Source of the DNA: Maricaulis sp.
GTDB lineage: Bacteria; Pseudomonadota; Alphaproteobacteria; Caulobacterales; Maricaulaceae
Assembly (NCBI GenBank): GCA_017643585.1
Contig: JAEPND010000008.1
Location: 84,331 to 148,330, forward strand
Length of the DNA stretch: 64,000 nucleotides
Reading direction: 5' to 3'
Both the position numbers and the translations under genes were made by a program. Each line of letters begins with the position of its first letter. Positions within the stretch are counted from its first letter, which is position 1. Positions 6,347 through 19,507 of this stretch are shown here, in pieces. The notes under the pieces were generated by a model. That model did no database searches. It had not been told where the DNA came from and was given only the letters and a program-made list of their open reading frames with translations.

Positions 6347-6790
6347 ATGGCCAAAGCAGATCTTGGAACCAAGCGCACCTGCCCTAGCTGCGCTGCCAAA
6401 TTTTACGACCTGGGCCGCCAGCCTGCGCGGTGCCCGAAGTGTGAGCATGAGTTCGATCCGGAAGCCCTGGAGCCGAAACTGCCGGTAGCGGATGATCCGA
6501 AACCGGAAGAGGCCGAGGAGCAGAAGGGCAAGGAAGCCGACGAACAGGACGGTTTCGAGGACGAGGCTGACGATACGCCGGAAGTCGACGAAGCGGCCAA
6601 CGAAGTGCCGGATTCCGATGATGACGACGATGAGGACGGTTCCGGCCTCAGCGACGATATCGGAGACGATTTCGAGTCCGAAGACGACCTCGACGATGAT
6701 GATGAGGACGACAACACCAAGGTCCTGATCGACGAGGAAGACGACGAGGATTTCGGCGACTTCAACATCGATAAAGAGGAAGATCTCTGA
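6347..6790 (+). CDS. TIGR02300 family protein (FYDLN zinc-ribbon-like, acidic tail)
   Basis: 147 residues. The N-terminus MAKADLGTKRTCPSCAAKFYDL contains the FYDL signature and two CxxC pairs (CPSC, CPKC), suggesting a small zinc ribbon. From about residue 55 the protein is extremely acidic, with runs of Asp/Glu (for example DSDDDDDEDG). The family is typical of alphaproteobacteria and of unknown function. It is divergent from aroA and followed by tRNA-Ala. The ribosome site is GAAGGGAAGTC before the ATG. Confidence 0.9.
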   Translation: MAKADLGTKRTCPSCAAKFYDLGRQPARCPKCEHEFDPEALEPKLPVADDPKPEEAEEQKGKEADEQDGFEDEADDTPEVDEAANEVPDSDDDDDEDGSGLSDDIGDDFESEDDLDDDDEDDNTKVLIDEEDDEDFGDFNIDKEEDL

Positions 6791-6893
6791 TCTTCTGCAG
6801 TACGGGGCGCAGCGGGCTCTTGATCCGGACACAATCCGGGACTAGGTTCCGCGCCTCTTGGCCGCTGACCCCAATGCGGCCAACCCGAGTTTC

Positions 6894-6969
<76 letters not shown>

Positions 6970-6976
6970 TTATCGA

Positions 6977-7008
6977 AAACCCCGCTGTCACCAGCGGGGT
7001 TTTTTGTT
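6977..7008. terminator. Bidirectional rho-independent terminator after tRNA-Ala
   Basis: AACCCCGCTG and CAGCGGGGTT pair around a TCAC loop and are followed on the plus strand by TTTTTTGTTG. The A-rich left flank gives a weaker T-run on the minus strand, so it may also stop the convergent Sel1 gene, whose coding region ends at 7020. Confidence 0.9.
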
Positions 7009-7019
7009 GTTCCGTTGCC

Positions 7020-7880
7020 TTACAGCCGGTCCAGATACTGGGTGGAGCGTTGTTCCGCCTCGGTCAGCTGGGCTTCTTCCAGTTGGTCCTCGATGGCTGA
7101 GGCGCTTTCAGCCGCGTCGAGATCACCCAGCGTGGCTGCGGTATAGAGCAGGGCGAGGGCCTCGACGAGATCGACATCGCCGCCCTCGCCGTCAAGCATC
7201 GCCTGGGCCAGCGCGGCCATGGACAGCGGGTCGCCACCGTCCGAGCCTGCCTGCCAGTAGGTGCGAGCGGCGGCCGGGTCCGCTTCGCCTTCCATGCCGG
7301 TCATGGCGCCAATGCCGAGAATATAGTTGGCGCCGGCCAGGCTGGTGTCGGCCGCAAGGGCCGCACGGGCGGCCGCGAGCGCCGCATCCGTATCCTCAAT
7401 GGCTTCCGGGCCGAACATCAGGGCTTCGGCGAGTCGTAACTGGGCGAAGGCTCCGACATCATTGCGTCCGGACAGCTGGCGATAGATCGCCAGACCGGCC
7501 TCGGCCTCGCCCTCATAGTCGTAGACCAGCAAATCGGCCAGATCGATCCCGGCGCTTGTATTGCGCGCCTGCCAGGCGAGCTCGAAAAAGGCGCGGGCCC
7601 GATCGAGCTCGGCATCCGTGCCGATGCCATCGCGATAGATCAGTCCCAGCACGTGATTAGCTTCTGCCGAGCCATCATTGGCAGCCTGCACGAGCCAGTA
7701 ACGCCCGATGGCGAAGTCGGGATCCCCGTTTTCGGGGAATGTCATGGCGTAGCCATAGTTGAACGCGGCAGAGCTGTCGCCGGCTTCGGCGGCGAGCCTC
7801 AGATCATCGACATTATCCTGGGCGATCACGGGTGAAGCCAGCAGGGCCGCTGAAACGGCCAGGGTGACAAGGCGCAACAT
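7020..7880 (-). CDS. Exported Sel1-like / TPR repeat protein
   Basis: 286 residues from the ATG at 7880, which has a GGAGG site five bases upstream. A longer reading adds 14 residues without a signal peptide. The first 22 residues (MLRLVTLAVSAALLASPVIAQ) form a signal peptide ending in AQ. The rest is repeated helical pairs with Sel1 features, such as AAEAGDSSAAFNYGYAM, AANDGSAEANHVLGLIYRDG and DGGDPLSMAALAQAML. Such proteins scaffold complexes or take part in envelope signalling; the role here is unknown. It lies downstream of ptsN in the same direction. Confidence 0.85.
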   Translation of the reverse strand: MLRLVTLAVSAALLASPVIAQDNVDDLRLAAEAGDSSAAFNYGYAMTFPENGDPDFAIGRYWLVQAANDGSAEANHVLGLIYRDGIGTDAELDRARAFFELAWQARNTSAGIDLADLLVYDYEGEAEAGLAIYRQLSGRNDVGAFAQLRLAEALMFGPEAIEDTDAALAAARAALAADTSLAGANYILGIGAMTGMEGEADPAAARTYWQAGSDGGDPLSMAALAQAMLDGEGGDVDLVEALALLYTAATLGDLDAAESASAIEDQLEEAQLTEAEQRSTQYLDRL

Positions 7881-14398: not shown

Positions 14399-14428
14399 TT
14401 GCGCGCGCTACAGAGGTATTAGAATATT
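14399..14428 (+). promoter_or_regulatory. Possible sigma-70-type promoter
   Basis: TTGCGC at 14399 and AATATT at 14423 are separated by 18 bases, giving a start near 14433-14436, right at the first paired base of the structured RNA candidate. This is a pattern match only. Confidence 0.3.
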
Positions 14429-14431
14429 ACT

Positions 14432-14580
14432 AGTGCTGCGCTCATGCGACACGCATAAGTGGCGGGCAGGGTCGCATCCCCCAAAATGTGAGCCTGAATT
14501 GCCCAATACCCGTGATCTACGGATCGCAAAAAGCACTGCATCCCGCTTCGGCCCCAAAACGAAGCGGGATGTTTTGTGTC
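14432..14580 (+). ncRNA. Candidate structured small RNA
   Basis: No protein gene is credible here, but the sequence folds: AGTGCT at 14432 pairs with AGCACT at 14532, GCG with CGC just inside, and GGGCA with TGCCC further in. The closed domain is followed at once by a 12-base perfect stem (14539-14550 with 14560-14571) and TTTTGTGT, a convincing intrinsic terminator. A promoter-like pair lies upstream. I do not match it to a known RNA family; it is shorter than 6S RNA. Confidence 0.35.
14539..14578 (+). terminator. Strong intrinsic terminator hairpin
   Basis: The stem CATCCCGCTTCG / CGAAGCGGGATG is perfect over 12 pairs with a 9-base loop and is followed by TTTTGTGT on the plus strand. No protein gene ends just upstream, which is the main reason to suspect an RNA gene here. 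Confidence 0.75.
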
Positions 14581-14642
14581 TGGGCTCCGGCTGAGCGCGC
14601 GATCGCACCGTCACCGGCAGCGCCACAAACACAGCCAGAAAC

Positions 14643-14666
14643 AAAAACAGCCGCACATCGGCGGCT
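14643..14666 (-). terminator. Displaced terminator of tRNA-Leu
   Basis: On the minus strand AGCCGC, a six-base loop and GCGGCT are followed by G and TTTTTG. It lies about 25 bases beyond the left attachment repeat, the distance expected for a terminator just past the tRNA-Leu 3' end. The integrated element now separates it from the tRNA by 4.7 kb. Confidence 0.55.
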
Positions 14667-14690
14667 TGTCGTTTCAATCTTTGCGAGGGG

Positions 14691-14713
14691 ATGGTGCCAG
14701 GAGAGGCGTCGAA
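14691..14713 (-). repeat. Left attachment-site repeat (att)
   Basis: Reads ATGGTGCCAGGAGAGG then CGTCGAA on the plus strand, against ATGGTGCCCAGGAGAGG then ACTCGAA in the tRNA-Leu 3' end (19420-19443). That is 21 matches with one gap and two substitutions, in the same orientation. The divergence suggests an old insertion or a tRNA-like target. Confidence 0.7.
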
Positions 14714-14768
14714 TATTTGTAGCATCTTACTGATTTAATATCAAAAATTATATCCCGAATTTTGAAAG

Positions 14769-14792
14769 ACCAACAATTATACCAACAAATTT
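14769..14792 (+). repeat. Arm-type integrase-binding repeats, left end
   Basis: ACCAACAA at 14769 and TACCAACAAATTT at 14780 lie 4 bases apart. The second is identical over 13 bases to the repeat at 19291-19303, in the same orientation. Repeats at both ends of an integrase element fit arm-type sites. Confidence 0.6.
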
Positions 14793-14947
14793 AGCGCCCA
14801 TGAGCTCGTCGCTTCGAGGGGGGCATCGAAGATTTGGTCAGCTGGATAGGATTGGGACAAGCGACAGTGCGCCATCTTCGCTACACGTCTCTAATCGCTC
14901 AAACTCAGACTACTAGCAAGTGCGATTGAGAACTGCTTTGTCCTTGG

Positions 14948-14981
14948 CCGAACTCGGTTTGGGCTAAACCGAATTCGGTTT
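14948..14981. promoter_or_regulatory. Tandem palindromic operator-like repeat
   Basis: CCGAACTCGGTTT (14948) and CCGAATTCGGTTT (14969) are 21 bases apart, two helical turns. The second sits in a perfect 16-base palindrome, AAACCGAATTCGGTTT (14966-14981). Such a pair is typical of a dimeric repressor's operators, perhaps for the gene at 15201 or the element's own regulator. Confidence 0.4.
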
Positions 14982-15200
14982 CAAACGGGTTGTCGCGTTC
15001 GTCCGCTCGCAATGATCGCGGAGTTGGAGTCAGGCGAAAGCGGACCGGTCTTCAAAAGCACGAACTTCCGGTCGGAGCCCACTCGACCTATTGCCGTCAC
15101 AAAGTTTACTTTCTCTAGGATGCGTGTCTGGCTGCGTGCAACTGAGCGCCGCTCGCTGCAGCGCATTGATCCGCTGGGGCGGATCACGGGAGACTAGTTG

Positions 15201-16970
15201 ATGCTTGAGAGTTTATCCGCGCTTGTTTTTGCGGCCGCGATTTCTTCTTTGACAGCGCAAGATTCTGATCAATATCAATTTGACCGCGAAGTTCTGGAAT
15301 GCGTGAGCGTTGAAGATTGCACTCCGTACCTAATGCGGCGTCGAGGCGTGCGGCACACCGATGATCTGATTGAGCATCTTGTGTCGGTTTATTCACAAGC
15401 CGGGGCTGATGGACGCGTTGCGGTCATCGAGGCAATCGGTCGAGCGGAGCGGTTTGAAGCTCGTCCTGGCGTGCAAGTCGCTATGCATCTGCCCGGTTAT
15501 ACTGAAGCGGACCAAGGCCGAATTCTGGCGCTTGTCAGCGAGGATCTGTTCTCAGACGCAACGGTGCTGTTGGGGCATGTGGGTGAGCGGCTGGCGCTCT
15601 TGGAGCTGATGGAAGCTCAGGATGGGCAATACAATCGCGCGAGCTTTGTGGACGCGGTCAGCGTCGCTGGCGACCGCGCAATTCCTGTTTTTCTTCCGTA
15701 CATGTCCTCACTTATCCGGGAGGATCGGGAAGAAGACGCCTGGACACTGGCCAACGGATTGCGAACGTTCCGGTCGTCAGACGCTTACTCGCAGTTTCGT
15801 GTCCCCATCACGAGCGCTTCTATTCAGATGTTGTTTGAATTAGCTGCGTCCACGGCTACCGCGGACGAAGAACGGCTTGCGGCAATGATCCTCCTTCAGC
15901 GTGGTGGCGACGCAATTCGCACCGTCGAGGAAGGGCTTCTCGAGATGGCTCGAGGGGAGCATGAGCGCCTCGCGCCGCTCGCTCTAAGCGCGCTCATGGA
16001 GATTCGGAACCATGAGATCGTGCCTGACCTGATCGCCCAATGTCAGTCACACGGTTTAGGCGATGAGCGATATTTCGATCTCTATGGTCCGTGTCAGTTC
16101 GACTACTTTCAATTCCTTGGGCCAAATGCCATTCCGGCCGGCCCGCGTATGCTGGATCTATTGAATTCGGAGCACCTTGAGTTTCGGCTGGAGGTTATCA
16201 AGACGCTCGCCGCCATAGGATACCGCCCGGCGGTGCCGCGCCTTCGCGAGCTATTGCGCTCCGAGTATTGGTCGGAGGTCATTGAGGCCGCGAATGCACT
16301 TCGGTCGCTGGACGATCGCGGTTATGCATCCATAATCGAAGAGGTCGCGTCCACCCATTGGCTTCCGTTCGCTCGTGAGGAGCTTGAATTGGTGATGAGT
16401 GGTTGGCTCACTGAGGCGGTTGAGGATGAAGACGCCGATGATCGCCTCTGGCGTTTTCCGGAAGCCGAAGCTTGCGCGAGCGGTCGGTGGGCTTGGCAAG
16501 GCGCCGTGATCGATGAGCCTGGCTCAGACGCGATCATGACGGACCCAGCCGAAAACGATTTCGGTCGTCGCATGGTTCTAGACCTCGGTGCGTTTCAATT
16601 GATCGGAACGGACCGGGGCGAATGGAGCGGTGAGTTGTACATTCAGTCAGGCGAAGGTGATCCGGTTCGTCTTGTCGAGGACAATGTTCTCAGCATGCAG
16701 CGAGTAGAAGGCGGGGCGATTGTTGCAACTGGCCTCAACCACATGATGCCGGGCCGTGGCAACATCTACCTTGTGACCGAGACCAACGATGGCTGGCATC
16801 TCAGTCATCTTACGGAGGCAACGGGGCCGAGCTACGGCGGATTGGTGCGAGTCTCTGATGGGGTGTTTGCGGCGTTCGAGCTGCGGCCGCAGCCTGGGAG
16901 CGAGCAATTCGTGTCTGTGTTCCACTTAAGCCGCGGGATGTTGGGCGTGGCGTCTTGTGTTTCCGATTGA
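15201..16970 (+). CDS. Exported protein with HEAT-like repeats, element cargo
   Basis: 589 residues from ATG 15201, with GGGAG upstream; a TTG just before is less likely. An N-terminal signal peptide (MLESLSALVFAAAISSLTAQ) precedes a charged region. Helical repeats of HEAT/PBS-lyase type are clearest at about 315-380: EVIKTLAAIGYRPAVPRLREL, then EVIEAANALRSLDDRGYASI. The C-terminal third (about 430-589) is beta-rich (LDLGAFQLIGTDRGEWSGELY, VRLVEDNVLSMQRVEGG), perhaps propeller-like. I do not recognise the whole protein. It is the only cargo gene of the tRNA-Leu element, but nothing shows what it does for element or host. Confidence 0.75.
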   Translation: MLESLSALVFAAAISSLTAQDSDQYQFDREVLECVSVEDCTPYLMRRRGVRHTDDLIEHLVSVYSQAGADGRVAVIEAIGRAERFEARPGVQVAMHLPGYTEADQGRILALVSEDLFSDATVLLGHVGERLALLELMEAQDGQYNRASFVDAVSVAGDRAIPVFLPYMSSLIREDREEDAWTLANGLRTFRSSDAYSQFRVPITSASIQMLFELAASTATADEERLAAMILLQRGGDAIRTVEEGLLEMARGEHERLAPLALSALMEIRNHEIVPDLIAQCQSHGLGDERYFDLYGPCQFDYFQFLGPNAIPAGPRMLDLLNSEHLEFRLEVIKTLAAIGYRPAVPRLRELLRSEYWSEVIEAANALRSLDDRGYASIIEEVASTHWLPFAREELELVMSGWLTEAVEDEDADDRLWRFPEAEACASGRWAWQGAVIDEPGSDAIMTDPAENDFGRRMVLDLGAFQLIGTDRGEWSGELYIQSGEGDPVRLVEDNVLSMQRVEGGAIVATGLNHMMPGRGNIYLVTETNDGWHLSHLTEATGPSYGGLVRVSDGVFAAFELRPQPGSEQFVSVFHLSRGMLGVASCVSD

Positions 16971-17066
16971 GGCCGAATGGCGTTGTCTAGCGCCGGAATC
17001 TTGATGGCTTGATCTCATTTGAGCTGTAGATGCATAGACGCGGTGGTGTTCACCTGCCGACTGCAG

Positions 17067-18020
17067 TCAATCCATATCTGCTGGAGGCGCATATTCCACC
17101 GCTTCAGCTAGGTATTTCCGGATCGTGTCATCGCTGACAGCGATCCCCAGCGTCTGTAAGTCTGTCAGAATTGCGCTTGCTGTGGTGGTTCGCCCGGCGT
17201 GTGGATTGTGCTCGTAACAAGCCATCGCCATGCCAAGCACAATCTTCAAGAGCGTCGACCGTTCGCGGGCGCCGAGCGGCTTTTCAGAAGATGCCGCAGG
17301 CTTTGCGGCGTTCTTCGCTTCAAGTTCCGCCAATTCGGATTTGAGCCTCGCCAGCTCGGACGACTGATTGTCGAATAGCGTTTTCCAGTCTGCGACTTGG
17401 CTGCCGTGATTTGTGACGGCTTCTTCTAACGCGATGGGAACATCGATCCTGTTGCGCTTTGCCCACGCGAGAAAGAAGCCAGGCAAATTCTCAGGCGCCA
17501 GTTGGTTCATCTTCAACGCCCGGGTTGCCAACAAGCGTATGTCGGCAAATTTCTTCGCGGCTTGAGATGGAGGCGAAACTCGCTTCAGCTTTGTCGAATT
17601 AAACTCAGTCGGGTTGCGTTCGAGTATGAGGGCGACGGCTTCGTCCAGTGTCCAATATGCGGCTTTCTAGTAAAAGTCGTACACGGCCTCGTTTGCCAAC
17701 GCAGCGGGGCGATTATGCCAGTGTTTCGCCTCGTTAAGCTCGGCCTGCTTTCTCTTGCGTGCCGGTTCCTCGTCGACGAATGCCCTCCATCTGCTTTGCA
17801 GATCGTCTTCGTCTAATGACGACAATTCCTCGTAGAACGCTTTTGCCTCGACATAATCGGCAGATAGGCGATCTTCTTCGTTGGAAGTGAATATGCCTTC
17901 CGGCCTGTAGCGATAGTTCCCGATTACACAAAACTTGGGGTACTTCTCTCCGAAGATATCCCACATCTTGCTGATCCGGATTTGCTCTGGAGTTAGCCGC
18001 GTGCCTGCCCGGTTGGTCAT
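17067..18020 (-). pseudogene. Element wHTH-like protein gene, interrupted by in-frame TAG
   Basis: One frame runs 318 codons from ATG 18020 to 17067 and is interrupted only by TAG at 17667-17669. The N-terminal part is 117 residues (MTNRAGTRLTPEQIRISKMW ... NEAVYDFY). Past the stop it continues KAAYWTLDEAVALILERNPT and ends with a coiled-coil-like stretch and a C-terminal domain ending LQTLGIAVSDDTIRKYLAEA. From memory, related proteins found next to tyrosine integrases have an aromatic, often Trp, before the xAxYWTLDEA motif, so TGG to TAG fits. The start overlaps the integrase stop (ATGA). Function is unknown; the C-terminal helix pair suggests DNA binding. Confidence 0.75.
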
Positions 18021-19240
18021 TTTTTTTCTCGATCGATTTTGTCTTGGCCGTCTTCACTCGTGCGCATTTTTTCAGCCTCCGCAGCCCACCACTCAGCCAT
18101 TCTTACGCGCTCATCCCAGTAAGCTGAACGATGATAGGCTCGCCTGACTTCATCTGCGCCCACATGGCCGAGTTCCGCTTCGATTGCGTCCGGGTGCCAT
18201 TTGCCGCTTTCATTGAGCAGGCTGGAGGCCGTCGCTCGGAACCCGTGCGAGGTCGCTTCGCCCTTACCGAAACCAAGGCGGCGTAGGGCCATGTTCATGG
18301 TGTTCTCGCTCATTGAGCGGTGAAAGCTGCTTGTTGACGGGAACACAAGATTGCCTGTACCGTTGAGCTTCTTCAGTTCTCTCAGGATGTCGATGGCGGC
18401 ACTGGAAAGTGGCTTGCGATGCTCGCGCCGCATTTTCGTTCGTTCTGCCGGGATGACCTAGGTCTTCGCGTCGAGGTCGAATTCGGCCCAATTGGCGCCA
18501 CGCAATTCGCCGGGGCGTGGGTAGAGGAGCGCCATGAGCTGCAGGGCAGATCGCGTTTCGAATGCCCCTTCGTATCGCCAGATGGCGCTGAATAGCGATG
18601 CCGCCTTTGTTCGATCGGTCGCGGCGGCGCGGTGAGTGACGCTGGGGGTGGTCAGCGCGCCCTTGATGCTTTGCGTCGGATCATGCGTCGCTTTCGCCGA
18701 GGCGATAGCAAATCGTATCACCTGGCCGATCACTGAACGGAGACGTTGAGCCGTTTCGAGCTTGCCTGCTGTTTCCATTCTTCGCAGTGGGATGAGAACG
18801 TCGGTGGCGGAAATCTCTGAAACAGGCATTTTGCCCAGATCCTTGTTCGCCAGATCGATCATCCAGCGGATCTTTTTCATCGTGGGTGCAGCACGGCCTT
18901 CGCGTTCGACCTTCTCGATATAGGCGCTCGCCAGTGCGCTGAATGTGTTGTCACGGCTCGCACGTTGGGCCTGCTTTTCAGCTTTTCCATGTGCCGAAGG
19001 ATCGATTCCCGTTGCCAGAAGCGTTTTGGCCTCGTCGCGTCTTTGTCGGGCCAGCGCCAATGAAACCGCCGGGTAGGCTCCGAAGGCGAGCGTTTTTTGC
19101 TTTTTGTCAAAGCGATACGCTAGTCGCCAGAGTTTCCCGCCGCTGGGGGATATGAGCAGGTGAAGCCCGCCGCCATCGCTCCGCTTGTACGGTTTGTCAG
19201 CGGGTTTGAGCGACCGGATTTTGATGTCGGTTAGAGGCAT
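18017..19240 (-). pseudogene. P4-type tyrosine integrase, interrupted by in-frame TAG
   Basis: A 408-codon frame, the normal P4-integrase length, is broken only by TAG at 18458-18460. N-terminal residues 1-90 form the DUF4102 arm-binding domain (MPLTDIKIRSLKPADKPYKR, then GGGLHLLISPSGGKLWRLAY). The core-binding domain is about 100-200, and the catalytic domain starts RSALQLMALLYPRPGELRGA with the first Arg. At the stop, FDLDAKT-stop-VIPAERTKMRR replaces the family's usual ...TWxIPAERMKMRR, so the lost residue is a conserved Trp. After the stop the catalytic HGFRATASSLLNE, ELGH and the Tyr of VRRAYHRSAYW are all present. It sits next to tRNA-Leu, its likely target. Confidence 0.88.
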
Positions 19241-19264
19241 CGTGCGTCGGCTTGCTGCAGCGGT

Positions 19265-19303
19265 TTAGTTGGTAAAAGTACCAACAAAAGTACCAACAAA
19301 TTT
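19265..19303 (+). repeat. Arm-type integrase-binding repeats, right end
   Basis: TACCAACAAA at 19279 and TACCAACAAATTT at 19291 are 12 bases apart. An inverted copy, TTAGTTGGTA, lies at 19265. They sit just upstream of the integrase start and match the left-end repeats at 14769-14792, so they may serve in both recombination and autoregulation. Confidence 0.6.
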
Positions 19304-19420
19304 GCTGGATGCAAGGCGACGTCGTCGGATCGTCTCGGACGATGATTTTCCGTAACCATTGATAAATAAATGGTTTTTGCGTCCATATTGGACGCTGTCG
19401 GACCTAGTAAAATAGGAGAA

Positions 19421-19507
19421 TGGTGCCCAGGAGAGGACTCGAACCTCCACGTCCATACGGACACTAGCACCTGAAGCTAGCGCGTCTACCAATTCCGCCA
19501 CCTGGGC
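19421..19507 (-). tRNA. tRNA-Leu (anticodon CAG)
   Basis: 87 nt with encoded CCA and a long variable arm (TGTCCGTATGGACG), as expected for leucine. The acceptor is GCCCAGG/CCTGGGC, the anticodon arm CTAGC-TTCAGGT-GCTAG gives CAG, and the T arm has GGTTCGAGTCC. Its 3' end is the attachment site of the element to its left. Confidence 0.97.

Follow-up and report, generated by a model that had tools for sequence, protein, structure and literature searches.

A 4.7-kb P4-type integrative element sits in the tRNA-Leu(CAG) gene of the window (the whole stretch of 64,000 nucleotides of Maricaulis sp. DNA analysed here), and both of its ends and a native-like flank are present. We consider it likely that this element entered the tRNA gene site-specifically and is now stranded there by a broken integrase, perhaps with the tRNA gene as its hostage. 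Its parts are the following, with tRNA positions here and below counted backwards from the CCA end:

19421-19507, minus strand: tRNA-Leu(CAG), the integration target; tRNA position 70 is 19427
19280-19303, strand not applicable: arm-type direct repeat on the integrase side, from repeat comparison
18017-19240, minus strand: P4-type integrase gene, with an in-frame TAG at 18458-18460
17067-18020, minus strand: partner gene directly after the integrase, with an in-frame TAG at 17667-17669
15201-16970, plus strand: open HEAT-repeat gene of 589 aa, from the ORF list and Pfam
14769-14792, strand not applicable: arm-type direct repeat on the far side, from repeat comparison
14692-14713, minus strand: displaced copy of the tRNA 3' end without position 70, the gap lying between 14697 and 14698
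14643-14666, minus strand: terminator-like hairpin of the native tRNA flank, from folding

The tRNA call, the displaced copy, the arm repeats and the flank agree with one another, as the sequence-only reading had proposed when it placed an integrative element with two readable ends in tRNA-Leu. The imperfect copy that it placed at 14691-14713 is real, but the true span is 14692-14713, and 14691 lies one base beyond. This copy has 88% identity to the tRNA 3' end over an ungapped 17-nt core, and its edit distance from the tRNA is 3 over 22 nt, the best shuffle reaching 5 (n=20). The match claimed between the arm repeats at both ends was borne out (21/24 positions identical; 0/300 Markov-shuffled pairs reached 21, and the best reached 19), and so was the tRNA-style terminator past the far repeat, where a hairpin with a T-run gives -16.7 kcal/mol over 14635-14680. 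The integrase gene adjoins the tRNA 3' end and reads away from it. Pfam searches of its two parts, made apart, found Arm-DNA-bind_3 and Phage_int_M before the stop and Phage_integrase after it, that is, the arm-binding, core-binding and catalytic domains of a P4-type tyrosine integrase, and a tRNA gene and a displaced 3' copy bound the 4.7 kb, as is expected of a P4-type element. Measured from the tRNA to the far copy, the element is the second smallest among 35 (range 4.5-19.2 kb, with L186 and L200 left out), and the description of it as unusually small thus holds for its size, but it is not unique. A DNA search of the source genome (3.1 Mb, 46 contigs) with the element returned one place. 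Pfam found no relaxase, mating-pair, capsid or helper-hijacking domain in the three genes, in line with the earlier statement that conjugation and capsid genes are absent, and no further plausible long ORF was seen by eye in the ORF list. Judged from this gene content, the element appears not to be assignable to ICEs, mobilisable elements or phage satellites, whose defining features it lacks.

The type and direction of the integrase had been read correctly, but the in-frame TAG had been missed. This stop precedes most of the catalytic domain, so that the working integrase of a P4-type element seems to be lacking, and a second in-frame TAG interrupts the partner gene, in which Pfam gives a weak HTH match below the cut-off. 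The integrase activity has presumably been lost, and because of the stops in these two genes the element is probably immobile. It might be argued that both codons are read through and the element is active, since both stops are TAG and lie in adjoining genes. Among related integrases, stops in the matched stretch were flagged at 13 places and include TAA and TGA as well as TAG, and at 6 of the 13 (the window, G212, G413, G224, G348 and G405) the stop is internal to the alignment, at positions that all differ, the window's being common to no relative. This indicates scattered loss rather than recoding, and we rejected read-through as very improbable. Outside the window, the sole other arm-domain integrase found in the source genome (G000:C45 near 6400-7485; L097, L242) is 27% identical to the window's and has a TAA within its matched N-terminal stretch.

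That the element was inserted between the tRNA and a native flank is supported by comparison within the genus. The tRNA lies near the same neighbouring gene in 17 of 18 other genomes, whose loci were retrieved, and was not found there in G008. The flank past the window's far copy resembles the sequence that follows tRNA-Leu(CAG) in relatives, with at most 10 of 300 shuffles reaching the score in 8/11 comparisons and none of the 300 in 3/11 (G009, G015 and G018 were unremarkable), whereas the integrase-side flank resembles the post-tRNA flank of only 1/11 (G015). In the nearest relative, G010, a different sequence follows the tRNA, and an ORF beside the tRNA there gave no Pfam match in the frame tried; among the genus loci none proved to be the exact empty site of a sister strain. 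The comparison of related tRNA-Leu(CAG) loci that had been proposed as a check therefore supports the native flank at the level of the genus, but it did not yield the exact empty site of a sister strain.

The tRNA-Leu(CAG) site is a hotspot in this genus. A window-type integrase is found in 2/17 relatives (G006, 74% identical; G016, 56%), and 27/30 loci of this integrase kind (L113-L142) lie directly after tRNA-Leu(CAG). G004 and G005 have tyrosine integrases of another kind directly after the tRNA, the contig of G007 ends 136 nt past the tRNA, beyond repeat-like units, and that of G012 ends one base past it. In G004 the whole tRNA is duplicated, with a stretch of ~13 kb between two complete tRNA-Leu(CAG) genes (L045, 3441-3527 and 16743-16829). 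The closest relative system is the element of M. salignorans DSM 16077 (NZ_FNHG01000010.1; G006, L033), which like the window's lies at tRNA-Leu(CAG), carries the arm-repeat motif at both ends and has the same one-base gap in its far copy, though its tRNA differs from the window's; its partner protein is 46% identical. Unlike the window's element, it has an intact integrase and partner, measures 8.9 kb, and carries type III restriction-modification genes in place of the HEAT gene.

The imperfection of the far repeat, which the sequence-only reading had noted, is a recurrent feature of related elements. The survey of far copies took in 69 loci, namely the window's, the 60 stretches L173-L232 and eight further loci, which are a part of the close-integrase finds in 96/398 genomes of the order and 12/385 of the class. 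A recognisable far copy was present at 37 of the 69, and 31 of these copies lack one base, 5 are intact (L197, L203, L219, L220, L227) and 1 is one base longer. The other loci were dropped, 27 because no copy was seen there, several of these lying on short contigs, and 5 because the match was weak (L202, L211, L218, L221, L229). The 31 include L207 and L208, which were counted by hand because a change at position 73 had put them in the script's class "other", and L177, L186, L187, L191, L205 and L206, which are no closer to the tRNA than the best of 20 shuffles and were accepted on a conserved string. Their targets are tRNA-Leu(CAG) in 25 cases and tRNA-Leu(CAA), Leu(UAA), Phe, Thr(CGU), Thr(UGU) and Gly in one case each. 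Only position 70 fits as the missing base in all 31 copies, as position 71 fits 29 and position 69 fits 28. It could be supposed that the copy is an unused remnant in ordinary decay, for the element contains broken genes and there would be no strong selection on it, but loss of the same position in 31/37 recognisable copies at several tRNA targets leaves random decay with hardly any probability, and we rejected it. The one extra base, in the far copy of L200 (tRNA-Gly), lies in a C run at the same place. Where the integrase is of another kind, the repeats are exact, over 50 aligned nt in G004 and 17 nt in G005. The source genome itself holds a second element outside the window (L253, G000:C43:9900-29800), of ~17.9 kb in tRNA-Leu(GAG), whose repeat is exact (22/22) and whose tyrosine integrase is of a different kind, outside the arm-domain matches of the genome; by eye, its genes look like type I restriction-modification.

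The far copies also suggest where recombination takes place. Positions 63-69 match the host tRNA in 31/31 copies, as does position 61, and position 57 does so in 30/31, position 62 in 25 and positions 59 and 60 in 10 each; these counts are biased towards matches, as far copies were found by their similarity to the tRNA. Position 66 follows the host in all 25 Leu(CAG) cases (15 C, 10 T), hosts with C66 and T66 are intermixed on the integrase tree, and in the 6 hosts with T62 the far copy has C62. The host-following of positions 63-69 and of position 66, together with the mixing of C66 and T66, points to strand exchange within tRNA positions 63-69, which would place the missing base at the 3' edge of the exchange block. 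By eye, many Leu(CAG) copies carry TGATGCC, or a sequence much like it, on their left side, which comes close to an inverted repeat of the GGCACCA on the right, as expected of paired integrase sites. A free site is available from the plasmid pBAM2, where an intact tRNA-Gly end stands ahead of a related integrase (46% identical); over 22 nt this end is identical to that of the tRNA-Gly at L198 and L200, the comparison being with these and not with the tRNA of pBAM2's own host. For a Xanthobacter plasmid site, a pattern search did not find the matching chromosomal tRNA, and we gave the site no weight. Inspection by eye of other phage records yielded no free site that could be used, and a viral scan with the far-copy pattern returned one contig with no integrase or tRNA nearby, which we took as chance.

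This kind of element is already known, since damaged Islander fragments, the excision of CP4So and a deletion in Sinorhizobium precede it. Islander distinguishes islands with a "damaged tDNA fragment", in which a small deletion lies 3 bp ahead of the discriminator (PMC4383910); this is tRNA position 70, and the window's displaced copy, with its small deletion at that place, is such a fragment. That account gives 148 damaged among 3919 islands for all integrases, in contrast to 31/37 recognisable copies for the one integrase clade considered here (PMC4383910). CP4So of Shewanella oneidensis is a P4-like prophage whose att sites differ by one base; when it excises, ssrA loses one base and no longer functions (PMC5148205). 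It shares with the window's element a P4-like integrase and a one-base difference between the ends, but it targets a tmRNA, measures 36 kb and is able to excise, whereas the window's element targets a sense-codon tRNA and has a broken integrase frame (PMC5148205). In a survey of Sinorhizobium, one att site is said to lack a single nucleotide, whose place the passage does not give. Our literature search, mostly short of full text, turned up no account of the position-70 deletion at the present tRNA targets in this integrase clade; the new points here are that it occurs at several tRNA targets and that it adjoins an invariant 7-bp block.

Williams reportedly noted in 2003 that a P4-subfamily integrase routinely damages attachment sites, perhaps adaptively. 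In the mechanism that we propose for the window, a P4-type element would have recombined site-specifically into tRNA-Leu(CAG), the exchange using the 7-bp block of positions 63-69 that adjoins the missing base; the part of the far copy 3' of this block would derive from the host tRNA, and one base would have been lost at the edge of the block. Excision would then yield an intact circle, but a tRNA-Leu gene without one acceptor-stem base. Because the far copy lacks this base, leaving would probably spoil the tRNA gene, and perhaps the element is held by the gene in this way, the tRNA acting as a hostage against its loss. The broader form of the idea, in which the integrases of this clade routinely delete the edge base in the displaced half of each new target, so that every integration makes a hostage of the tRNA while the circle stays intact, is a tentative proposal that we think could well be wrong. 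The five intact far copies and the one with an extra base count against the hostage model. The source genome also has a tRNA-Leu(UAG), which might read CUG, so that a cell without the CAG tRNA may still be viable.

It is also possible, if somewhat doubtful, that the gap travels with the element, the att site being an imperfect mimic of the tRNA and the strands being exchanged within the CCA end, on the 3' side of position 70. A good tRNA would then be restored on excision, and there would be no hostage. The changes in the far copies left of position 63 are element-like and recur across hosts, and one inherited gap would need fewer events within the Leu(CAG) group. L207 and L208, which are unrelated insertions with outer flanks (3 kb) that do not match, share the change at position 73, as if the 3' part of the copy travelled with the element, which speaks against the hostage model as well. 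A travelling gap is hard to reconcile with position 66, which follows the host throughout the Leu(CAG) cases, and with L216 and L220, whose integrases are 90% identical and which use the same tRNA, one far copy being gapped and the other (L220) intact. It would also require a new origin of the gap for every tRNA target, and the free pBAM2 site is intact. In CP4So, the deletion ends up in the RNA gene upon excision (PMC5148205).

Should every integration produce the gap, a single base pair would suffice to tie an element to its host, by way of the tRNA for a common codon: among the 1480 Leu codons of 36 long ORFs of the window, which were picked mechanically, 737 are CTG. With 31 copies gapped and 5 intact across several tRNA targets, pairs are at hand for testing whether the gap is made by the integrase. 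Island finders that require exact repeats will miss much of this integrase clade.

The earlier description of one obvious cargo gene, HEAT-like, was confirmed, as the gene encodes a 589-aa HEAT-repeat protein whose N-terminus, judged by eye, suggests export. Relatives of this protein occur in 10/136 other genomes of the family. The suggestion that it might be a recurrent integrase-linked cargo found no sign in its favour: a window-type integrase or partner was absent from the stretches around one HEAT match in each of the 10 genomes (one stretch per genome, that of L093 covering 3.9 kb), and a viral scan with the protein returned 7 stretches and no relative. The HEAT protein would thus be a passenger, its family otherwise standing at places without a window-type integrase. 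The protein had a HEAT match of marginal strength in PADLOC (E 0.007), and a single-sequence structure prediction had a mean pLDDT of 46.6, too poor for a fold search. Our guess from the N-terminus and the repeats is that an envelope or periplasmic scaffold protein is most likely.

Beyond the far end of the element, the intergenic stretch 14415-14575 is common with G010. It has a TATTAGAATATTAC-like start by eye, and Rfam gave no match there. A perfect 12-bp inverted repeat lies inside a 35-nt stretch that is identical in G010, and the whole is perhaps a small RNA gene with its terminator.
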